A DNA stretch of 44,394 nt from Stappia stellulata (lineage in GTDB: Bacteria; Pseudomonadota; Alphaproteobacteria; Rhizobiales; Stappiaceae): assembly GCF_020176715.1 (NCBI RefSeq), contig NZ_JAIVMF010000022.1, positions 1 to 44,394 on the forward strand. The letters are read 5' to 3'. The notes under the pieces were generated by a model. It was not told where the DNA came from. It saw only the letters and a program-made list of their open reading frames with translations, and searched no databases. The position numbers were made by a program, and so were the translations under genes. Shown in pieces: positions 5,396 to 16,813 of the stretch. The first letter of the stretch is position 1. Each line of letters begins with the position of its first letter.

Positions 5396-6292
5396 TTACC
5401 GGCCTGCTCCGCGCCGGCCGAAGCCGGTCAGGCCGGTGCCCTGGAAGGACGCCCCGCCGGTCGCATGGCGCCCCGCTCCGGATCCCGGCGGCGCTGCTGC
5501 CGGCCAGTTGCGCTGAATGCCCCGGACACCGACAAAAACGAACACCGCGCGCCAGAGAAAGGGCCAGAGCACGCCCAGCGGGCTCTTCAGCGTTTCGGCG
5601 AGGCGAACGTCCTGCGGATCGTAGATCGGATGAACCAGCGCGACCGTGTGGCCGGGTTGATGATCGCCGGCCGTTTGCGCAGCCACCTTGAGGGTTTTCA
5701 TCCACAAGCGGCGCTGCGCGGGCGAAAACGACACATCGAGAAGATAGTAGCGGACGTCGCCCGTCTGCGGATCGGAGATTTCCCGCCGGTCCTCGACGGT
5801 TCCCTCGATGCGAAGGCCGGCGAGCACATGCGCTCCCGATCCCGCCAGATCCGCCAGGTGCCGGGGCACGCCGTGGAGGGCGACGCCGATGCCGAAGGCG
5901 AAGGCGAAGGCGAAGGTGCAGATGGCCGCCCAGCGCCGCACGGGCGAGGTTCCGCGTGCGGCTAGGCCGCTGGCAAAGCCGCGGCGCAATCGTGCCGCCA
6001 GCCCGAGGACCCCGACCAGCAGCACCGCCAGACCGATAAGGAGTTTGACCGATCCGCTGAGAACGATCGCTGTCTTCACAGCCTTTACGGCTTCTTCCGG
6101 CACACGCGGCGCAAAGGCGGTCTCGGGCAACGCCACCCCGCGCTCCGCCAGATCCGGCATTTGGAACCGGGGCGCGGGTTGAACAAGCGGAAGGAAATCG
6201 AGGGCCGCAAACACCAGGATCAGGACGCCTGCAGAGAGGACGACAATCCAGATCCCGAGACCGACGACGGCACCCAAAACACGGTCGAGCAT
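5396..6292 (-). CDS. Multi-pass membrane protein with DUF3592-like domain
   Basis: A 298-residue inner-membrane protein. Hydrophobic segments lie near residues 7-33, 75-100, 121-141 and 240-258. Between the last two, 'RIEGTVEDRREISDP...YYLLDVSFSPAQRRLWMKTLKV' and 'GHTVALVHPIYDPQDVRLAETLKSP' follow the DUF3592 pattern: a short extracytoplasmic beta-rich domain with a 'YDP..vRL' motif placed between membrane helices. The 30-residue C-terminal tail is Gly/Ala-rich and looks disordered. Start at 6292 follows a weak GGGTG. An overlapping minus-strand frame (5313-6299) is arginine-rich with no family resemblance and is a shadow. It lies between the anchored cyclase and isovaleryl-CoA dehydrogenase genes, with 87 bases to the latter. 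Function unknown. Confidence 0.8.
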   Translation of the reverse strand: MLDRVLGAVVGLGIWIVVLSAGVLILVFAALDFLPLVQPAPRFQMPDLAERGVALPETAFAPRVPEEAVKAVKTAIVLSGSVKLLIGLAVLLVGVLGLAARLRRGFASGLAARGTSPVRRWAAICTFAFAFAFGIGVALHGVPRHLADLAGSGAHVLAGLRIEGTVEDRREISDPQTGDVRYYLLDVSFSPAQRRLWMKTLKVAAQTAGDHQPGHTVALVHPIYDPQDVRLAETLKSPLGVLWPFLWRAVFVFVGVRGIQRNWPAAAPPGSGAGRHATGGASFQGTGLTGFGRRGAGR

Positions 6293-6379
6293 GAAACACC
6301 CTAAGGCAGCAATATGCTACCTAAAGGTGCTGTTCGTTAAATTTGCACTACCGCCACGCGATTTCCCCGCACATCTTCC

Positions 6380-7555
6380 TCAGGCGGTCTTGTTGAAGAT
6401 TTCCCGGCCGATCAGCATGCGGCGGATTTCGGAGGTTCCGGCCCCGATCTCATAGAGCTTGGCATCGCGCAGCAGCCGTCCGGTCGGATACTCGTTAATA
6501 TAGCCGTTGCCGCCGAGCAGCTGGATCGCGTCGAGCGCCATCTTGGTCGCGGTTTCGGCCGCATAAAGGATCGCTCCGGCGGCATCCTCGCGGGTCGTCT
6601 CGCCCCGGTCGCAGGCCTGCGCGACGGCATAGACATAAGCCTTGGAGGAATTCATCGCGACATACATGTCCGCGACCTTGCCCTGCACGAGCTGGAACGT
6701 GCCGATCGGCTGGTCGAACTGCCGGCGCTCGTGGATATAGGGGATCACCACGTCCATCGCGGCCTGCATGATGCCGACGGCCCCGGCGGCGAGCACCGCG
6801 CGCTCATAGTCGAGACCGGACATCAGCACGTTGACGCCCTTGCCGACCTCACCCAGCACGTTTTCCTCCGGCACCTCGCAATCCTGGAACACCAGCTCGC
6901 CGGTTTCCGATCCGCGCATCCCGAGCTTGTCGAGTTTCTGGGCGACGGAAAATCCGGCGAAGCCCTTCTCGATCAGGAAGGCGGTGATGCCTTTGGGCCC
7001 GGCGTCGGGATCGGTCTTGGCATAGACGATCAGCGTATCGGCATCCGGCCCGTTGGTGATCCACATCTTGGAGCCGTTGAGGATATAGCGGTCGCCCTTC
7101 TTGTCGGCGCGCAGCTTCATCGAGACGACATCCGAGCCGGCCCCCGGCTCCGACATGGCCAGCGCGCCGAGATGCTCGCCGGTGATCAGCTTCTCCAGAT
7201 AGCGGGTCTTTTGCGCGTCCGTACCCCAGCGGCGCAGCTGGTTGACGCAAAGGTTGGAATGCGCGCCGTAGGACAGGCCGATGGAGGCCGATGCCCGCGA
7301 CACCTCTTCCATCGCGATGCAATGCTCCAGGTAGCCGAGGCCGGTGCCGCCCCACTCTTCTTCCACCGTGATGCCATGCAGGCCGAGCTCGCCCATCGCG
7401 GGCCAGAGTTCGGCGCGCGGGAACCAGTCCTCCCGGTCGATGCGCTCCGCAAGCGGTGCGATCCGGTCCTGCGAGAACGACCGCACGCTGTCGCGCAGCA
7501 TGTCTGCGGTTTCGCCGAGATTGAAGTTGAAGGCGGGAAAATCGTTGCGGATCAT
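6380..7555 (-). CDS. ivd: Isovaleryl-CoA dehydrogenase
   Basis: An FAD-dependent acyl-CoA dehydrogenase of 391 residues that oxidises isovaleryl-CoA to 3-methylcrotonyl-CoA in leucine breakdown, passing electrons to ETF. Subfamily assignment rests on the catalytic base: Glu251 in '[11 protein letters not shown]' occupies the position unique to isovaleryl-CoA dehydrogenases, while the usual C-terminal glutamate site reads '[11 protein letters not shown]' with Gly/Ala. FAD-binding 'MSEPGAGSD' (134-142) and 'WITNG' (165-169) are present. It is the third gene of a MerR regulator - thioesterase - dehydrogenase unit, 41 bases downstream of the thioesterase. The other leucine-pathway genes (methylcrotonyl-CoA carboxylase, hydratase, lyase) are not in this window. 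Confidence 0.95.
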
Positions 7556-9354: not shown

Positions 9355-10779
9355 ATGACGGATACAGAGCCATTCAACGAAATGCTCGGACCGGACGGTC
9401 AGCCCCGCGCGCCCTACAGGGCGCTGGCGGAGTGGTTCTCGGGCATGTCTCCTGCCGAGATGCGCAGGAAATCGCGCGAGGCCGAAACGATCTTCCGGCG
9501 TCTGGGCATCACCTTCGCCGTCTATGGCACCGCCGAAGCGACGGAACGCCTGATCCCCTTCGACATCGTGCCGCGCGTTCTCGCGGCGGCCGAATGGCGG
9601 CGGATCTCCGCCGGCATCGACCAGCGGGTGCGGGCGCTGAACGCGTTCCTGCATGACATCTACCACCGGCAGGAAATCATCCGCGCCGGCCGGATTCCTG
9701 CCGAACTGGTGATCCAGAACGAGGCGTTCCTGCCGGAGATGATCGGCTTCACGCCGCCGCGCAAGGTCTATGCGCATATCATCGGCACCGACCTGGTGCG
9801 GGTCGGCGAGGACGAGTTCTACGTGCTGGAGGACAACACGCGCACGCCGTCGGGCGTGTCCTACATGCTGGAAAACCGCGAAACCATGATGCGGATGTTT
9901 CCCGAGCTGTTCCAGCAGAACCGCGTCGCGCCGATCGAGCATTATCCAGATCTTCTGCGCGAAACGCTGGAAAGCGTCGCGCCGGCGAATTGCGACACCG
10001 ACGAACCGACGGTCTGCATCCTGACGCCGGGCATCTACAACTCCGCCTATTTCGAACACGCCTTTTTGGCCGACAGCATGGGTGTCGAACTATGCGAGGC
10101 GCGCGACCTTTTCGTCGACGACGGAAAGGTCTTCATGCGTACCACCCGCGCGCCGGAACGGGTGCACGTCATCTACCGGCGCATCGACGACGCCTTCCTC
10201 GACCCCCTCACCTTCCGGCCAGACAGCATGCTCGGCGTGCCGGGCCTGTTCGATGCCTATCGCGCCGGGAACGTGACGATCTGCAACGCACCGGGAACAG
10301 GCATCGCCGACGACAAGGCCGTCTACGCCTATCTGCCGGAGATCATCGAGTTCTACACCGGCCAGAAGCCGATCCTGCAGAACGTTCCGACCTGGAACTG
10401 CGCGCGGGAAGACGACCTTGCCTATGTGCTCGATCACCTGCCGGAAATCGTGGTCAAGGAAGTGCACGGGTCGGGCGGCTACGGCATGCTGATCGGCCCG
10501 ACCGCATCGAAACGCGAACTGGCGGAATTCAAGCGCCGGCTGAAGGCCAATCCGTCGAACTACATCGCCCAGCCGACCCTGTCGCTTTCCGCCTGCCCCA
10601 CCCATGTCGCCTCGGGCCTTGCGCCGCGCCATGTCGACCTCAGGCCCTATGTCCTGGTCGGCGACAAGGTGCGCATCACGCCTGGCGGGCTGACCCGCGT
10701 CGCCCTGAAGAAGGGCTCGCTGGTGGTCAATTCCAGCCAGGGCGGCGGCACCAAGGACACCTGGGTACTGGAGGACTGA
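9355..10779 (+). CDS. Circularly permuted ATP-grasp protein (DUF404/DUF407 type)
   Basis: A 474-residue cytosolic protein of the circularly permuted ATP-grasp type 2 family, predicted to join a carboxylate to an amine using ATP. Visible signatures run in family order: the N-terminal 'IFRRLGITFAVYGTAEATERLIPFDIVPR' block (46-74), 'VLEDNTRTPSGVSYMLENR' (158-176), 'VIYRRIDDAFLDPL' (268-281), and the late nucleotide-binding 'VVKEVHGSGGYGMLIGP' with 'DLRPYVLV' near the end. The start has GGGGGAG five bases upstream. It leads a four-gene set with an alpha-E protein (6 bases away), a transglutaminase-fold protein and the Anbu peptidase. Comparative-genomic work predicts a peptide-ligation system for such clusters; the substrate is unknown. 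Confidence 0.93.
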   Translation: MTDTEPFNEMLGPDGQPRAPYRALAEWFSGMSPAEMRRKSREAETIFRRLGITFAVYGTAEATERLIPFDIVPRVLAAAEWRRISAGIDQRVRALNAFLHDIYHRQEIIRAGRIPAELVIQNEAFLPEMIGFTPPRKVYAHIIGTDLVRVGEDEFYVLEDNTRTPSGVSYMLENRETMMRMFPELFQQNRVAPIEHYPDLLRETLESVAPANCDTDEPTVCILTPGIYNSAYFEHAFLADSMGVELCEARDLFVDDGKVFMRTTRAPERVHVIYRRIDDAFLDPLTFRPDSMLGVPGLFDAYRAGNVTICNAPGTGIADDKAVYAYLPEIIEFYTGQKPILQNVPTWNCAREDDLAYVLDHLPEIVVKEVHGSGGYGMLIGPTASKRELAEFKRRLKANPSNYIAQPTLSLSACPTHVASGLAPRHVDLRPYVLVGDKVRITPGGLTRVALKKGSLVVNSSQGGGTKDTWVLED

Positions 10780-10785
10780 TACGAC

Positions 10786-11733
10786 ATGCTCGGCCGCACC
10801 GCCGCTTCGCTCTACTGGACCTCGCGCTACAACGAGCGCGCCGAAAACATGGCCCGTCTGCTGGAAGTCGGCTATCGCATCGCGATGACCCCGCGCCTGG
10901 GACAGGATCGTTCCGACGACTGGCGCTCGACGCTGGTGAGCGCGGGATGCGACGGCGCGTTCTTTTCCAAATACGACGAGCCGACCAAGCGCGCCGTGGT
11001 TCAGCACATGCTGTTCGACCGGGACAATCCCTCCTCCGTGCGCTCCTGCATCGAGGCGGCCCGCAACAACGCGCGCTCGGTCAGAACCGCCATCACCGGG
11101 GAAATGTGGGAAAGCCTGAACACCACCTATCTGGAGTTCATGGACATTCGCCCGCAGCACATGACCGACAACAAGCTTCCGGACTTTCTCGCCTGGATCA
11201 AGCAGCGCTCCATGCTGTTTCGCGGCGCCATGCTGGGCACCCTGATGCGCGACGCCGGCTATCACTTCAGCCAGTTCGGCGCCTTCATCGAGCGCACGGA
11301 CAACACCGCCCGCATCCTCGACGTGAAATACTGGATCCTGCTGCCGGACAACGAGATGATCGGCGGCGATCTGGACCGCTACCAGTGGACCACGATCCTG
11401 CGGTCGGTTTCGGCGCACAGAAGCTATCGGCACGCCTATCGCGACGCCCAGGTGCGCCCCTTCAATGTCGCGGAATTCCTGATCCTGAGAAAGGAAATGC
11501 CGCGGTCCATCTCTTACTGCTATGATTGGATCTCGGAGAGCGCTGCCGCTCTTGCGATCCGCTATCAAGACAGCCCGGTAAGCTGCGATATGGCCCATGG
11601 CACGCTCTCGCTGCTCGAGGAAACCTCGATGAACCGCATCTTCCAGGGTGGCTTGCATGAATTCCTGACCGATCTGATCGCCCGCAACAACGCGCTTGGC
11701 GCCCAGCTCGCATCGGATTACCACTTCTCGTAA
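10786..11733 (+). CDS. Alpha-E domain protein (DUF403)
   Basis: A 315-residue, mainly alpha-helical protein of the alpha-E family. The N-terminal signature 'MLGRTAASLYWTSRYNERAENMARLLEVGYR' (1-31) is almost invariant in the family, and the internal glutamate-containing helices 'FIERTDNTARILDVKYW' (about 169-185) and 'PRSISYCYDW' follow. No enzymatic motif is known. Members nearly always sit next to a circularly permuted ATP-grasp gene, as here with a 6-base gap, and are thought to form a complex with it or supply a substrate-handling domain. The 49-base gap to the transglutaminase-type gene fits one transcript. Confidence 0.93.
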   Translation: MLGRTAASLYWTSRYNERAENMARLLEVGYRIAMTPRLGQDRSDDWRSTLVSAGCDGAFFSKYDEPTKRAVVQHMLFDRDNPSSVRSCIEAARNNARSVRTAITGEMWESLNTTYLEFMDIRPQHMTDNKLPDFLAWIKQRSMLFRGAMLGTLMRDAGYHFSQFGAFIERTDNTARILDVKYWILLPDNEMIGGDLDRYQWTTILRSVSAHRSYRHAYRDAQVRPFNVAEFLILRKEMPRSISYCYDWISESAAALAIRYQDSPVSCDMAHGTLSLLEETSMNRIFQGGLHEFLTDLIARNNALGAQLASDYHFS

Positions 11734-11782
11734 TGCGGACAGGACGCGTGTCCGGAACGCGACCAACGGAGACCGACGGCCC

Positions 11783-12601
11783 ATGCGCCTCGTCGTGAAA
11801 CACGTCACACGCTACACATACGAACAGCCGATTGCCCACATGATCCAGCAATTGCGGCTGACCCCTCACACTCAGGAGGGGCAGGAGATCCTGTCCTGGA
11901 CGGTGACGGTGCCGGGTCTGGAAACGGGCGCCCATTACATCGACGGCTTCGGCAACCGGGTCGATCTGGTCAGCCACCACGACCCTGTCACCGAGCTCAG
12001 CGTCTCCGTCGAGGGCCTGGTCGAAACCAAGGACATGGCCGGGATCGTCGGCGACTTCCCCTGCCCCGCCACCGACGACGTGTTCCGGCGCTTCACACCG
12101 CTGACCGCGGCCAGTCCGGCGATCCGGCGCCTCGGCGCGCTCGCCTCCGACACCGGCGATGTCTCCGGTTTTCACGAGTTGATGCACGCGATCCGCGACA
12201 AGGTCGACTATCAGACCGGCGTGACGGAAGTACACACCACCGCGGCCGAGGCGCTCGCCTCGGGGCAAGGCGTCTGCCAGGATCATGCACATATTTTCAT
12301 CAGTGCGGCCCGCTGCATTGGCGTGCCGGCGCGCTATGTGTCCGGATACATGCTGATGGAAGACGAGCAGGAGTCCGAGGCCCATCACGCCTGGGCCGAG
12401 GTCAAGTTGCCGACGCTCGGCTGGGTCGGCTTCGATGTCTCCAACGGCATGTGCCCGACCGAGCGCTATATCCGCCTGACCACGGGCCTCGATTCCCGCT
12501 CCGCCGCCCCCATTCGCGGCATCCGCAGAGGCAGCGGCGATGAATCCATGTCGGTTGAGGTGGCGGTCCTGCAGGAATCGGCGCAAGCTCAACAGCAATG
12601 A
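11783..12601 (+). CDS. Transglutaminase-like cysteine protease-fold protein
   Basis: A 272-residue protein with an N-terminal beta domain (1-80; 'RLVVKHVTRYTYEQPI' is the family opening) and a transglutaminase core. The triad is complete: Cys165 (GQGVCQDHAH), His202 (EAHHAWAEV) and Asp218 (GFDVSNG). It has no signal peptide, so it should act in the cytoplasm. Such proteins are more often amidases or peptidases than cross-linkers. Set between the alpha-E and Anbu genes, it is predicted to cleave or transfer the peptide-like product made by the ATP-grasp enzyme. Start 11783 is preferred because the beta-domain motif begins there; the ribosome-binding site (GGAGACC) is some distance upstream. 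Confidence 0.92.
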   Translation: MRLVVKHVTRYTYEQPIAHMIQQLRLTPHTQEGQEILSWTVTVPGLETGAHYIDGFGNRVDLVSHHDPVTELSVSVEGLVETKDMAGIVGDFPCPATDDVFRRFTPLTAASPAIRRLGALASDTGDVSGFHELMHAIRDKVDYQTGVTEVHTTAAEALASGQGVCQDHAHIFISAARCIGVPARYVSGYMLMEDEQESEAHHAWAEVKLPTLGWVGFDVSNGMCPTERYIRLTTGLDSRSAAPIRGIRRGSGDESMSVEVAVLQESAQAQQQ

Positions 12602-12693
12602 AACCGTTGCTCCCTCGCCCGGAACACGGTCATATCCTTCAAGCCTCCCAAGACGGGAATCATCCCGCGCCACGGCACGCTCGCCGCAGGTGC

Positions 12694-12710
12694 GTTGCAA
12701 ACGGTGCAAC
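12694..12710 (+). promoter_or_regulatory. Hairpin abutting the Anbu start codon
   Basis: GTTGCA and TGCAAC pair perfectly across a five-base loop (AACGG), and the second arm ends one base before the ATG at 12711. It fills the place where a Shine-Dalgarno sequence should be; none is recognisable in the 30 bases upstream. A second small hairpin (CGGGA/TCCCG, 12654-12667) lies further up. This suggests structure-dependent or coupled translation. Confidence 0.4.
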
Positions 12711-13442
12711 ATGACGTACTGCGTAGGTCTCAAGCTTGACCGCGGCCTGGTGATGGCCGCCGATACGCGAACGAATGCCGGTCTCGACAGTGTCGCGACC
12801 TTCAAGAAGCTGCATGTGTGGGAAAAGCCCGGCGAGCGGGTGCTCTGCCTGCTTTCGGCCGGCAACCTTGCCGTCACCCAGTCGGTGGTGAGCCTTCTGT
12901 CCGAACGGCTGGAAGGCGACGATCCCGCCCGCCCCACGCTGTTTTCCGTGGACACGATGTTTCAGGCCGCCCGCCTTGTCGGCAGCGTCGTGCGCGACGT
13001 GCGCGCCATCGACGGCGATGCGCTTGCCGCCAACTCCGAGAGCTTCAGCGTGACGTTCCTGCTCGGCGGGCAAATCAAGGGCGAGGCGCCACGGCTGTTC
13101 CAGATCTATTCCGCCGGCAACTTCATCGAGGCCTCCGACGACACGCCGTTCCTGCAGATCGGCGAACACAAATACGGCAAGCCGATCCTGGACCGGGTGA
13201 CCCAGGCCGACATGCGCCTCGGCCAGGCCGCGAAACTGGTGCTTCTGTCGTTCAACTCGACGCTCAGGTCGAACCTGTCCGTCGGCATGCCGATCGACAT
13301 GCTGCTCTACAATACAGACAGCTTCTCCGCCCACCGCCAGACGCGGGTCGAGGAGACCGACCGGTATTTCGCGGACATGTCGCGCATGTGGTCGGAAAAA
13401 CTCCGCGATGCGGTCGCCGAGATCCCCGACTTCGAGATCTGA
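12711..13442 (+). CDS. Anbu, proteasome beta-like peptidase
   Basis: A 243-residue N-terminal nucleophile hydrolase of the Anbu family (ancestral beta subunit), related to proteasome beta and HslV. After Met removal the first residue is Thr1 (TYCVG), Asp17 sits in 'AADTRTNAG', and lysines at 31/32 in 'TFKKLHVW' lie at the expected Lys33 region, so the active site looks intact and needs no propeptide. The later 'FLLGGQIKGEAPRLFQIYSAGNFIEA' and 'YGKPILDR' are Anbu-specific. This start is forced by the need for an N-terminal Thr. It is 109 bases downstream of the transglutaminase-type gene. Known Anbu proteins form open helical rings, and peptidase activity has been hard to show; the natural substrate is unknown. 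Confidence 0.95.
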   Translation: MTYCVGLKLDRGLVMAADTRTNAGLDSVATFKKLHVWEKPGERVLCLLSAGNLAVTQSVVSLLSERLEGDDPARPTLFSVDTMFQAARLVGSVVRDVRAIDGDALAANSESFSVTFLLGGQIKGEAPRLFQIYSAGNFIEASDDTPFLQIGEHKYGKPILDRVTQADMRLGQAAKLVLLSFNSTLRSNLSVGMPIDMLLYNTDSFSAHRQTRVEETDRYFADMSRMWSEKLRDAVAEIPDFEI

Positions 13443-13475: not shown

Positions 13476-14198
13476 TCAGGACGACGGCATCAACTGCGCG
13501 GCCGCCGCGCGGGCAAGCGCGTCCGCCAGCTCCTGCTTGTTGGCTTCGCCGACATGCGCATCGCTCGGGTTGTCGCCGAAGAAGGGCTCGGTGAGCGCGG
13601 AAGGGATGTCCAGCGCCGACACGCTGCTGTAGCCCCGATCGCCCTTGTCCCGTTCCTTCAGGCCGCGGTCATAGAGCCCGAGCGCCTGAAGCATCGCGTC
13701 CTGCAGCCGTTGCGCCCAGGCCTTCGATCCGGCATTCCGGTCCTCGTCGTAGAGCGTTTCCGTGCCGTGCGCCGCGCCGTTATACGAGTTGAAATGCAGT
13801 TCCATCACGCAGCTTGCGCCCCATTTGGCGACCTGCTTGTAGGCACCGGCGATGCCGATCCCATCGCGAAAGAAGATCTTGCTCTGAATGCCCTGCGCCA
13901 TGCAGGCCTGATGCACCATCGCGGCAAGACCCTTGTTCCAGGGATATTCGCTCTTGTGGATCGGAGCTCCGCCCGACGCGCCGGGGCTGTTTTTCGTGTG
14001 CCCGACGACGATGGCGACCGCCGGCCCGGACGCCCGCGCCACGATCTCCTTTTCCGCATCGACCCCGGCGCGCGCACCACTCAGGATCTCTTCCAGATCG
14101 TTCAGCCGCTCCTGCTCTGCCCGAATGACCTGATAATCCTCATAGGAAATCTCTTCACCCGCCAATATACGGCGCTCGATTTCTGCAATATCCACCAT
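13476..14198 (-). CDS. Zinc amidase (amidase_3), no signal peptide
   Basis: A 240-residue N-acetylmuramoyl-L-alanine amidase-type protein, expected to cut the lactyl-peptide bond of peptidoglycan. Zinc ligands fit His67 (VVGHTKNSPG), Glu84 (HKSEYPWN) and His135 (MELHFNSYNG); the catalytic glutamate is Glu204 (ALTEPFFG). Residues 1-56 form a charged helical extension ('AEIERRILAGEEISYEDYQVIRAEQERLNDL'). Start 14198 has GGGGGAGG six bases away, ruling out the longer frame from 14225. There is no Sec signal, unlike housekeeping AmiC-type enzymes; this is typical of phage or gene-transfer-agent endolysins. No phage genes surround it. It is convergent to Anbu, with 33 bases between stops. Confidence 0.88.
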   Translation of the reverse strand: MVDIAEIERRILAGEEISYEDYQVIRAEQERLNDLEEILSGARAGVDAEKEIVARASGPAVAIVVGHTKNSPGASGGAPIHKSEYPWNKGLAAMVHQACMAQGIQSKIFFRDGIGIAGAYKQVAKWGASCVMELHFNSYNGAAHGTETLYDEDRNAGSKAWAQRLQDAMLQALGLYDRGLKERDKGDRGYSSVSALDIPSALTEPFFGDNPSDAHVGEANKQELADALARAAAAQLMPSS

Positions 14199-14224
14199 CT
14201 GCACCTCCCCCATCCGAAAGTGCA

Positions 14225-14252
14225 ATTATAGCCTCGGCAAAAAACAATTAAA
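14225..14252 (-). promoter_or_regulatory. Candidate promoter for the amidase gene
   Basis: A perfect TATAAT (minus strand, 14230-14225) with TTTAAT (14252-14247) 16 bases upstream. The -10 is about 27 bases from the amidase ATG at 14198, leaving a short leader that contains its ribosome-binding site. Confidence 0.4.
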
Positions 14253-14278
14253 GATTGTGCTTGCGACAAACACCCGCC

Positions 14279-14296
14279 ATCGCCGGCACCGGCGAT
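14279..14296 (-). terminator. Hairpin downstream of the ATP12-type gene
   Basis: ATCGCCGG pairs perfectly with CCGGCGAT around two bases, about 20 bases after the ATP12-family stop (14316). The minus-strand continuation is GGCGGGTGTTTG, with no proper T-run, so termination here would be weak or factor-assisted. Confidence 0.35.
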
Positions 14297-14315
14297 AGCC
14301 GGCAAAATCGGCCGG

Positions 14316-15104
14316 TCAGGTGCCGGCCCGCGTCGCCTGAAGCACGTGCACCGCCGCGTCGAAATCGCGCCTGCGAAGCGCGCGTGTGCGCTGCGCCTCT
14401 TCGTCGGCGCCCCATTGCTCGATGTTCCAGTCCTCGTCGAGATGGGCCGCAGACCAGATCGTGTCCGGATCGAACGCCTCCTGCGCAAGCGCCAGCGCCA
14501 GCAGCGCCGACCCGGTCAGCGTCGTCGCGACGTGCAGCGCCGCAAGCCGCAATGGCGAGGCCGGCTCCAGCCGCTCGCGAATGCGTGCGATCAGCGCCGG
14601 ATCCTGGCGCACCGGCATGATGCCCTCGGCCAGCACGAAACGGCCGGCATAGCGCGCCTCCGCCCAGGCCAGCACCGCGCCCCATTGCTCGTTCTGGCGC
14701 TGGACCAGCGTGTCCGGCATTTCCGCGCGGTAGAACAGCAGGTCGTTGCCGGCATATTTGGCGATGTCGTCAGCGACCTCGGCCATGCGTTTCGACACGG
14801 CATCGATCGCGACATTGGCAATGCGGGTCAGCGGCATGCGCAGCGGATCGATCTCGGTTTCCTGCGCGTCCCATTCCTCCGCGACCCGACGCGCGAGCGC
14901 CTCGTCCGGCAGAACGAGCCGGTTGCGCTGTGCCGTCCTGACCGGGCGCCCGTCGAGCAGAATGGAAAACCCGTCGTCGCCGGCGTCCACCGACACGACG
15001 GTGTAGAAGCGCTTCGGCAATTGCTTGCGCGACAGCGTCTTCGCCCGCTCCACGGGATCGAGGGCCCCGCCGCCCGCTTCCAGCTCTTCCAGCAAATCAC
15101 GCAT
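14316..15104 (-). CDS. ATP12-family F1-ATPase assembly chaperone
   Basis: A 262-residue homologue of mitochondrial Atp12, which binds the F1 alpha subunit before it joins the hexamer. Family hallmarks: 'KRFYTVVSVDAGDDGFSILLDGRPVRT' (31-57), 'PLTRIANVAIDAV' (91-103), 'DLLFYRAEMPDTLVQRQNEQWGAVLAWAE' (121-149) and the C-terminal 'HLDEDWNIEQWGADEEAQRTRALR', with the Trp-Gly-x-Asp-Glu-Glu motif. The start ATG at 15104 overlaps the HAD gene stop by one base (TGATG), so translation should be coupled. Atp12 homologues among bacteria are essentially alphaproteobacterial, which supports the taxonomic reading. It is the last gene of the crcB - pseudouridine synthase - HAD - atp12 run. Confidence 0.93.
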   Translation of the reverse strand: MRDLLEELEAGGGALDPVERAKTLSRKQLPKRFYTVVSVDAGDDGFSILLDGRPVRTAQRNRLVLPDEALARRVAEEWDAQETEIDPLRMPLTRIANVAIDAVSKRMAEVADDIAKYAGNDLLFYRAEMPDTLVQRQNEQWGAVLAWAEARYAGRFVLAEGIMPVRQDPALIARIRERLEPASPLRLAALHVATTLTGSALLALALAQEAFDPDTIWSAAHLDEDWNIEQWGADEEAQRTRALRRRDFDAAVHVLQATRAGT

Positions 15105-15799
15105 CAGACACGATCCATTTGTGCAGCAGCCGACCGAAGATCGAGCATTTCGGCCAGCACGCCCTCAAGCTCGCCAAAGGCATCGATGATGCGCCCGGCG
15201 CCGCTTGCCACCAGCTGCTCGCGCGGATGATAGCCCCAGCTCACGCCGACGGAGGAAACGCCGGCCGCGCGCGCCATGTCGATGTCGAACGTGGTGTCGC
15301 CGATCATCACCGTCCTGTCGGCTTGCGCCCCCGTTTCGGCCATCGCCTGCAGGATCATGCCCGGGTGAGGCTTGGACGGGGCGCTGTCCGCCGTCTGGAT
15401 GGTGGCGAACATCCGCTCCAGACCGTGCATTTCCTGCAAGTGACGGACACCGCGCAGGGCCTTTCCGGTGGCGATGCCGAGCAGCACGTCGTCGCGCGCA
15501 TGCAGCGCGTCAAGCACCGCGCGGGCGCCGGGATAGAGCGGATCGTGATCGAGCCCGGCAAGCCGGCGCGCGACCTTGGCCTGGCGGTAGGCGTCCGCCA
15601 TCGCCGGCACCAGATGGGCGTGCTCGGGCGCGACGAGCCGCCTGAAGGCGACATCGAGGGACAGCCCGACGATGGACAGGCCCGTGCGCCGGTCCGGCGG
15701 GGTCAGCCCCACCGCCTCGAACCCCACCGTCACCCCGTGCAGGATCGTGTCCTGACTGTCGACCAGCGTCCCGTCGCAATCGAAAATGACCAGATACAG
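15104..15799 (-). CDS. HAD-superfamily phosphatase with CTG start
   Basis: A haloacid-dehalogenase hydrolase of the phosphoglycolate-phosphatase-like group, 231 residues if started at CTG 15799. The catalytic motif DxDGT lies at residues 7-11 ('YLVIFDCDGTLVDS'); the motif-II threonine is in 'LLGIATGKALRG', the lysine in 'SKPHPGMI', and motif IV is 'MIGDTTFDIDMARAAGV'. The first ATG/GTG-type start is GTG 15733, which would remove the nucleophile Asp and leave a dead enzyme. The only upstream codons before the in-frame stop shared with the pseudouridine synthase gene are GCC and CTG. A GGAGG sequence sits 8 bases before that CTG, so CTG is the best start. Substrate not assignable. Confidence 0.88.
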   Translation of the reverse strand: MYLVIFDCDGTLVDSQDTILHGVTVGFEAVGLTPPDRRTGLSIVGLSLDVAFRRLVAPEHAHLVPAMADAYRQAKVARRLAGLDHDPLYPGARAVLDALHARDDVLLGIATGKALRGVRHLQEMHGLERMFATIQTADSAPSKPHPGMILQAMAETGAQADRTVMIGDTTFDIDMARAAGVSSVGVSWGYHPREQLVASGAGRIIDAFGELEGVLAEMLDLRSAAAQMDRV

Positions 15800-15802
15800 G
15801 GC

Positions 15803-16813
15803 TCAGTCCTCCGGATCGTTGGTTTCGGGGTCGTATTGGGCGGCATCGAAACCGAGCAGGTTCCAGCTTTGCTGCATGTGGGCGGGCAGCGGCGCGGAAA
15901 TGTCGATCGAGCCGCGCCCCGACGGATGCGGAATGACGATGCGGCGGGCATGCAGATGCAGCTTGTTCTGCAGTCCGCCCGGGAACTCGAAGTTCTCGAT
16001 GTTGAAATACTTCGGATCGCCGATGATCGGATGGCCGATATGGGCGGCATGGGCGCGCAGCTGGTGCGTGCGGCCGGTGATCGGGCGCAGGCTCACCCAG
16101 GACACCTTCGGCCCGGCGTTCTCCACCACCGAATAGAGCGAGACGGAATGCTGCGCGTCGGTCTCGCCGTGGCGGGCGATGCGCATGCGTTCCTCGTCCT
16201 CGTCGCGGGTCAGATAGGTGGAGATCCGCCCCTGGCGCGGCTTCGGCACGCCGGCCACCAGCGCCCAGTAGATCTTGCGGGTCTGGCGCGCGCGGAAGGA
16301 TTTCGACAGCGACTGCGCCGCCTTGCGCGTCTTGGCGAGCAACAGGATGCCCGAGGTTTCCCGGTCGAGACGGTGCACGAGACGCGGCTTTTCGCCCTTG
16401 GCGTCGCGGAAGGCCTCCAGCATGCCGTCGAGGTGCCGGGTCAGGCCGGAGCCGCCCTGCACCGCAAGCCCGGCCGGCTTGTTCAGCACCATCACCTCGC
16501 GGTCCTCATAGACCGTCATCGCCTCGACCGCCTCGCGGTCGCCGGCCACGAGCTTGCGCGCCTTCGGCTTGGCGTTGGCGCTGTCCTTGGCCTGGACCTT
16601 GGCGTCGACCTGCATCGGCGGGATGCGCACCACCTGCCCCGTTGCAATGCGCGTGGAGGTGTCGACGCGCTTGCCGTCGACACGCACCTGCCCGGTGCGC
16701 AGCAGCTTTTGCAGGTGCCCGAAGCCGAGCCCCGGAAAATGCGTCTTGAACCACCGGTCAAGGCGCATGCCGGCCTCATCCGCGGTGACGGTTCGTTGTT
16801 CTATTCCGGACAT
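15803..16813 (-). CDS. RluA/RluC-family 23S rRNA pseudouridine synthase
   Basis: A 336-residue enzyme that isomerises uridines in rRNA. Residues 14-66 form an S4 RNA-binding domain ('MRLDRWFKTHFPGLGFGHLQKLLRTGQVRVDGKRV'); the catalytic domain follows from about 100 with Asp150 in 'LVHRLDRETSGILLLAK' and 'RPITGRTHQLRAHAAHIGHPI' downstream. The layout and length fit RluC, which targets three positions of 23S rRNA, but RluD-type specificity cannot be excluded by eye. A Lys/Ala-rich insert (70-90, VQAKDSANAKPKARK) links the two domains. Its stop is three bases from the CTG start of the HAD gene, in the same frame, and its last codons carry that gene's ribosome-binding site. Confidence 0.92.
   Translation of the reverse strand: MSGIEQRTVTADEAGMRLDRWFKTHFPGLGFGHLQKLLRTGQVRVDGKRVDTSTRIATGQVVRIPPMQVDAKVQAKDSANAKPKARKLVAGDREAVEAMTVYEDREVMVLNKPAGLAVQGGSGLTRHLDGMLEAFRDAKGEKPRLVHRLDRETSGILLLAKTRKAAQSLSKSFRARQTRKIYWALVAGVPKPRQGRISTYLTRDEDEERMRIARHGETDAQHSVSLYSVVENAGPKVSWVSLRPITGRTHQLRAHAAHIGHPIIGDPKYFNIENFEFPGGLQNKLHLHARRIVIPHPSGRGSIDISAPLPAHMQQSWNLLGFDAAQYDPETNDPED

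Follow-up and report, generated by a model that had tools for sequence, protein, structure and literature searches.

The Anbu operon of Stappia stellulata: gene identities, conservation among relatives and a candidate ligase-hydrolase function

The four-gene locus

The window considered here, that is, the whole stretch of DNA analyzed, covers 44,394 nucleotides of Stappia stellulata (contig NZ_JAIVMF010000022.1). It harbors genes for a circularly permuted (CP) ATP-grasp ligase, an Alpha-E protein, a transglutaminase-like protein (TGase) and Anbu, a proteasome-like N-terminal nucleophile (Ntn) hydrolase, all on one strand and in that order (Table 1). The family matches are strong and co-linear, and the arrangement is therefore not due to chance; the locus is the canonical, published Anbu operon, an ordinary copy of a widespread and already described bacterial gene set. 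A preliminary description, made from the sequence alone, had placed four genes of these families here. The open reading frames (ORFs) and Pfam matches confirm both positions and families, with PF14403, PF04168 and PF01841/PF08379 identifying the first three products, and with Anbu recognized through PF00227 together with PDB entry 5nyj.

Table 1. Genes of the Anbu operon in the window
Product	Length	Position	Strand	Matches and features
CP-ATP-grasp ligase	474 aa	9355-10779	+	Pfam PF14403 (CP_ATPgrasp_2) E 3.2e-170; PF04174 E 5.5e-154; PDB 3n6x E 2.4e-201
Alpha-E protein	315 aa	10786-11733	+	Pfam PF04168 E 9.2e-91; helical halves ~1-153 and 154-315, homologous
Transglutaminase-like (TGase)	272 aa	11783-12601	+	PF01841 (Transglut_core) E 1.1e-22; PF08379 (Bact_transglu_N) E 1.1e-20
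Anbu, proteasome-like Ntn hydrolase	243 aa including Met	12711-13442	+	PF00227 (Proteasome) E 7e-9; PDB 5nyj E 1.1e-97

The genes are separated by 6 nt (ATP-grasp/Alpha-E), 49 nt (Alpha-E/TGase) and 109 nt (TGase/Anbu); the profile scan of the TGase began at position 11780. Among solved structures, the Anbu protein is matched by five distinct sequences, three named Anbu and two named 'Peptidase', with 5nyj aligned over the whole length (residues 1-244 against 1-243 of the query). The best solved relative of the ATP-grasp protein, 3n6x, was deposited as a putative glutathionylspermidine synthase, that of the TGase by sequence is 3isr (E 1.4e-11), and Alpha-E has no solved relative in the PDB sequence search up to an E-value of 1. 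A search of NCBIfam gave no match for ATP-grasp, Alpha-E or TGase, and matched Anbu only below the curated cut-off.

The active-site residues of the two putative hydrolases are in place, as had been described. In Anbu, Thr1 (T2 of MTYCVG, 12714-12716), Asp17 and the active-site lysine (Lys32(33)) are all present, and they are unchanged in 112 of 112 aligned rows of relatives from both sets compared below. The ORF list also holds an alternative upstream start for this frame at 12540. The ATG at 12711 is the sole start that places the threonine beside the initiator methionine, and all 58 Anbu matches from the order sample begin at that residue. The residue preceding the threonine is methionine in 103 of the 112 rows, valine in 5 and leucine in 4, as is expected for start codons that are read literally. 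A perfect 6-bp inverted repeat (GTTGCA, a 5-nt loop, TGCAAC), read by eye at 12694-12710, abuts this start codon and may be a chance occurrence. The TGase, read against its relatives, carries the Cys-His-Asp triad as Cys165, His202 and Asp218.

Conservation of the gene set

Eighty named relative loci were found through Alpha-E, and features were counted within each fetched stretch. The exact set and order of ligase, Alpha-E, TGase and Anbu is found in 54 of the 80. The genes are not contiguous in all of these, and wide gaps are seen in L080, L088, L094 and L096. The ligase lies immediately 5' of Alpha-E in 78 loci, the remaining two beginning at a contig edge; Anbu lies inside the fetched stretch in 62, and a TGase is found no more than 1.5 kb downstream in 74. 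Of the six loci without a nearby TGase, L056 and L090 stop at a contig edge, and in L074 and L103 Anbu is present and no TGase is detected. In the other two, L088 and L094 (Methylorubrum), the TGase lies ~2 and ~4.5 kb past Alpha-E, and Anbu is found further downstream.

The operon has been described in print as four genes in a conserved order (PMC6376114), and the same co-occurrence is given in PMC5666114, which credits the idea of peptide synthesis to Iyer et al. 2009. The operon of Yersinia bercovieri has the same four families, the same order and the same Anbu catalytic residues as the window (PMC6376114), and we find no difference of substance between the two. On its own, the Stappia copy brings no new evidence on function.

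The comparison of relatives was extended to whole genomes. In a sample of 101 genomes from the order (the order sample), Alpha-E was called at E-values up to 0.001 and Anbu up to 1e-10; the Alpha-E counts take in fusion-type genes. Alpha-E is found in 68 of these genomes and Anbu in 58, and all 58 Anbu genomes also have Alpha-E. In a phylum sample of 249 genomes, Alpha-E is found in 132, and 84 of the 85 genomes with Anbu have it. The corresponding hypergeometric probabilities, in which kinship is ignored, are 4e-18 and 2e-30. Since 10 of the 68 Alpha-E genomes of the order sample lack Anbu (one of them, G089, having a long-frame Alpha-E only), the ligase and Alpha-E look like a constant core to which Anbu is a dependent add-on. 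Anbu without detected Alpha-E occurs in a single genome of the two samples, and what the ligase and Alpha-E produce is therefore the best place to look for the natural substrate of Anbu. The search for this substrate is narrowed accordingly, and the function of the operon also bears on the early history of the proteasome.

Alpha-E, the ligase and the transglutaminase

The ATP-grasp protein has a long list of invariant residues over 75 aligned rows; besides second copies, six named loci are missing from this count (four partial, split or with a stop, and two without a match). For Alpha-E, an alignment of the window with 59 of the 80 named loci was used both for structure prediction and for comparison of its halves. 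The AlphaFold2 model from these 60 rows is confident and all-helical, with a predicted local distance difference test score (pLDDT) of 92.0 and a predicted template modeling score (pTM) of 0.90; its weak stretch spans residues 186-190 and includes the invariant P187. The two halves of the protein are homologous (hhalign Prob 98.4, E 4.6e-15, 132 columns); Alpha-E is a tandem duplication. By comparison, a reversed half gives E 0.57 and the best of 30 column permutations gives E 0.0049. An 80-column rotation of the second half was also tried as a negative control and was discarded; the match persists (E 4.3e-12 over 69 columns), which is to be expected because such a rotation does not break up the matching block. 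Each half contains an ER-A-(E/D)-N-x-A-R motif, in which the A is T in the second half of the window protein. The conserved ER pair is present in both halves of the window protein, with E169 and R170 found in 81 of 81 rows and E17 and R18 each in 79 of 81. The accessible text of the cited literature makes no mention of the duplication.

In two genomes, G041 and G019, a sister locus encodes the ATP-grasp protein fused to Alpha-E in a single chain (800 and 833 aa), with genes for a TGase and a DUF2126 protein alongside. Of the long-frame Alpha-E genes of the order sample, the scan for fusions covered these two. This sister system (L150, L152) has the CP-ATP-grasp, Alpha-E and TGase families in common with the window, but differs in the fusion and in the added DUF2126 protein, a putative amidoligase. 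No Anbu is found among the seven proteins scanned there, and the single Anbu match of each genome sits elsewhere. The window genome has a single, unfused Alpha-E, and the sister system is therefore not detected in it. Given that the two genes adjoin in 78 of 80 loci and are fused in two sister loci, and given the invariant charged residues and the internal duplication, Alpha-E is likelier to be a component of the ligase than the scaffold proposed in the preliminary description.

The TGase is more variable. Among 74 named relatives, 60 retain its cysteine; of the 14 in which this residue is replaced, 12 keep the histidine and all keep the aspartate. In the order sample, loci were scanned for 66 of the 68 genomes with Alpha-E (all but G078 and G089), and 62 of the 66, the window genome included, have a TGase. 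The cysteine is replaced in 10 of these 62; seven of the 10 keep the histidine and all keep the aspartate. The two sets may share species and so are not independent, and the counts refer to the aligned position only and would not register a displaced cysteine. In the separate residue count, the TGase is missing for 12 named loci besides second copies: four have no match and eight were dropped, namely L035, which is in two pieces, and seven with a stop, probably where the alignment overran the end of the gene.

The fewest changes in this cysteine on a tree of the ligase number 9 (130 of 137 labeled rows used, 22 without the cysteine, L035 left out of the labels), and a faster tree with 123 labeled rows gives 10; these counts cannot separate loss from gain. 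At L038 and L099, extra TGase copies might compensate for the loss. A link between cysteine loss and absence of Anbu was considered and rejected. Counted by locus, an apparent association is seen among the named relatives (46 with and 8 without Anbu where the cysteine is present; 6 with and 8 without where it is absent), but with genome-wide Anbu calls in the order sample it vanishes (47 with and 5 without; 9 with and 1 without; Fisher p = 1.0).

Because the nucleophile is missing in 14 of 74 and 10 of 62 cases, catalysis by the TGase is not a fixed feature of the system. Replacement of the cysteine is not accompanied by loss of Anbu. The TGase thus has a role that is at times independent of the nucleophile, or an activity that is dispensable in some lineages; the protein need not be catalytic. 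The preliminary description had portrayed two peptidase folds as parts of the system. Both are present in the window, but as a fixed set they are not supported. Loss of active-site residues across close relatives had been named as evidence that would count against it, and such loss does occur at this cysteine in some relatives, while both relatives from the window's own family retain it.

The same loss bears on protein tagging, in which the ligase, with or without the TGase, would place a peptide tag on cell proteins, and Anbu would either remove it in the manner of a deubiquitinase or degrade the tagged protein. Hypotheses of this kind are in print (quoted in PMC6376114), and they draw on the presence of ATP-grasp, TGase and proteasome-like folds in one operon. 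The available literature names neither a tag nor a target, however, and with the TGase nucleophile so often lost, tagging appears unlikely, although it carries more weight than the other alternatives considered below.

Candidate function and regulation

We infer, with confidence a little better than even, that the ligase and Alpha-E make an amide or short peptide, which Anbu and, optionally, the TGase hydrolyze or trim. Alpha-E would be a standing component of the ligase, in which the CP-ATP-grasp protein would activate a carboxylate at the expense of ATP; the resulting amide would be a short peptide, or else a metabolite or protein with an amide modification. Anbu, as a split-ring N-terminal-threonine hydrolase, would then hydrolyze, trim or release this product, and in most lineages the TGase-like cysteine enzyme would join it in doing so. 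A free small peptide or amide is as likely a product as a conjugate on a target. In agreement with such a role, a homologous ATP-grasp protein releases orthophosphate from ATP (PMC6376114). The preliminary description had likewise read the locus as a make-and-cut system, and its interpretation is partly supported, its observation of the genes being confirmed.

A number of points weigh against this ligase-hydrolase scheme. The orthophosphate could, according to the authors, come from plain hydrolysis of ATP, pull-downs with the Yersinia operon proteins gave no specific complex, and Anbu, Gln and Glu all failed to stimulate the Yersinia ATP-grasp protein (PMC6376114). On the 7-amino-4-methylcoumarin (AMC) peptides tested, the activity of Anbu proteins from Yersinia bercovieri, a Hyphomicrobium and Pseudomonas aeruginosa did not rise above background (PMC6376114). 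G187 has Anbu and no detected Alpha-E. In the order sample, Anbu lies more than 200 kb from Alpha-E in G034 and G076; G038 has the two genes on different contigs, and G019, G065, G079 and G087 have them on opposite strands. Among the matches listed for the phylum sample, Anbu is distant, or sits on a contig other than that of Alpha-E, in at least G114, G117, G130, G158, G176, G278, G287, G298, G316, G322 and G336, as read from coordinates, and further Alpha-E copies may be nearer. Finally, a literature search, which reached neither most subscription papers nor any bioRxiv preprints, found no paper that establishes the product of the operon; PMC12096838 and PMC8407117 contribute little on the subject. 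This agrees with the earlier statement that product and target had not been established, and with the accessible text of PMC5666114, PMC6376114 and PMC8665760.

The Yersinia Anbu has Thr1, Asp17 and the lysine, yet is inactive on the AMC peptides tested (PMC6376114). The intact residues in the window are thus no proof of a working system, as purified Anbus of three species cleave no tested peptide, and the argument that the module is probably functional on the strength of its residues is a weak one. Conservation of these residues in the face of unseen hydrolysis (PMC6376114) could also be accommodated if Anbu were a transpeptidase or ligase, with the operon forming peptide bonds at two steps. 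The proteasome homolog connectase is indeed a specific ligase (PMC8665760). That Anbu should act likewise seems very improbable, however, given that no acceptor is known and that Anbu forms an open split-ring oligomer, whereas connectase is a monomer (PMC8665760).

The ligase-hydrolase scheme can be drawn more sharply, as a doubtful but conceivable version. The ligase core would have two parts, the CP-ATP-grasp protein and Alpha-E, the latter a duplicated helical unit with two ER-(E/D)-N motifs that would serve as substrate holder; Anbu would be a dedicated hydrolase of the product, and the TGase would repeatedly have turned into a non-catalytic binding partner. The Anbu operon has parallels in RimK/RimB and the rlo operons, where an ATP-grasp protein is paired with a peptidase and where the rlo TGase is inactive, as some TGases of the window's relatives may be (PMC12239564). 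The parallel is one of analogy only; the aspartic peptidase belongs to another peptidase family, and the term 'Alpha-E' is absent from the main text of PMC12239564.

A further alternative sees the operon as a module for nitrogen limitation, active in peptide remodeling or nitrogen recovery, in which Anbu would serve as a turnover peptidase and the ligase would store or recycle nitrogen. It gains support from sigma54-like sites (at least 10 of 12 positions, in the 300 nt preceding the ligase gene), which are found in 27 of 77 sequences, the window and 76 named relatives. For comparison, mononucleotide shuffles give 38 of 3850, reverse strands 3 of 77 and the stretches lying 300-600 nt upstream 0 of 77, and a wider set gives 34 of 113 against ~1.1% of 2260 random stretches. 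Seven of the 27 carriers are Methylobacteriaceae, so that the carriers are not independent. The enrichment agrees with PMC5491218, which reports a Burkholderia DUF403/404/407/TGase cluster to be NtrC-dependent, and with PMC12316311, in which COG3484 is listed in a sigma54 regulon analysis, and it is therefore not new. These domains have also been associated with urea metabolism in marine metagenomes (PMC3597751), and PMC5666114 cites an increase of Pseudomonas putida Anbu when nitrogen is limiting.

Although many relatives have such a site, the window does not. Its best match in the 300 nt 5' of the ligase gene is 6 of 12, with no -24/-12 element, and two relatives of the same family likewise lack a site (one with a best of 7, the other with none). 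Control of the window operon by sigma54 is rejected. No excess of NtrC-like sites is seen (5 of 27 sequences with a sigma54-like site, 4 of 45 without; 161 of 1540 shuffles), and regulation in any case gives no chemistry. A nitrogen module is accordingly a distinctly unlikely account of what the operon does. Scans of the window for other signals gave one promoter-like match, within the ligase gene, and no terminator-like match.

Some minor observations concern Anbu genes elsewhere. The Anbu gene of G187 (L155) lies on contig C88 at 6056-6775. At L109, a second Anbu-like gene (9658-10380), with 45% identity to the window Anbu, stands right behind the first. In a fragmented genome, the Anbu match at G014:C181:9540-10268, within L138, holds one in-frame TAG, which may be a sequencing error or the mark of a decayed copy. 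The window genome has a second proteasome-family gene, a 187-aa open frame on contig C9, which is probably HslV. Downstream of the operon, at 13479-16813 on the minus strand, the window encodes an ordinary set of neighbors: Amidase_3, an ATP12 chaperone, a HAD hydrolase and a pseudouridine synthase.

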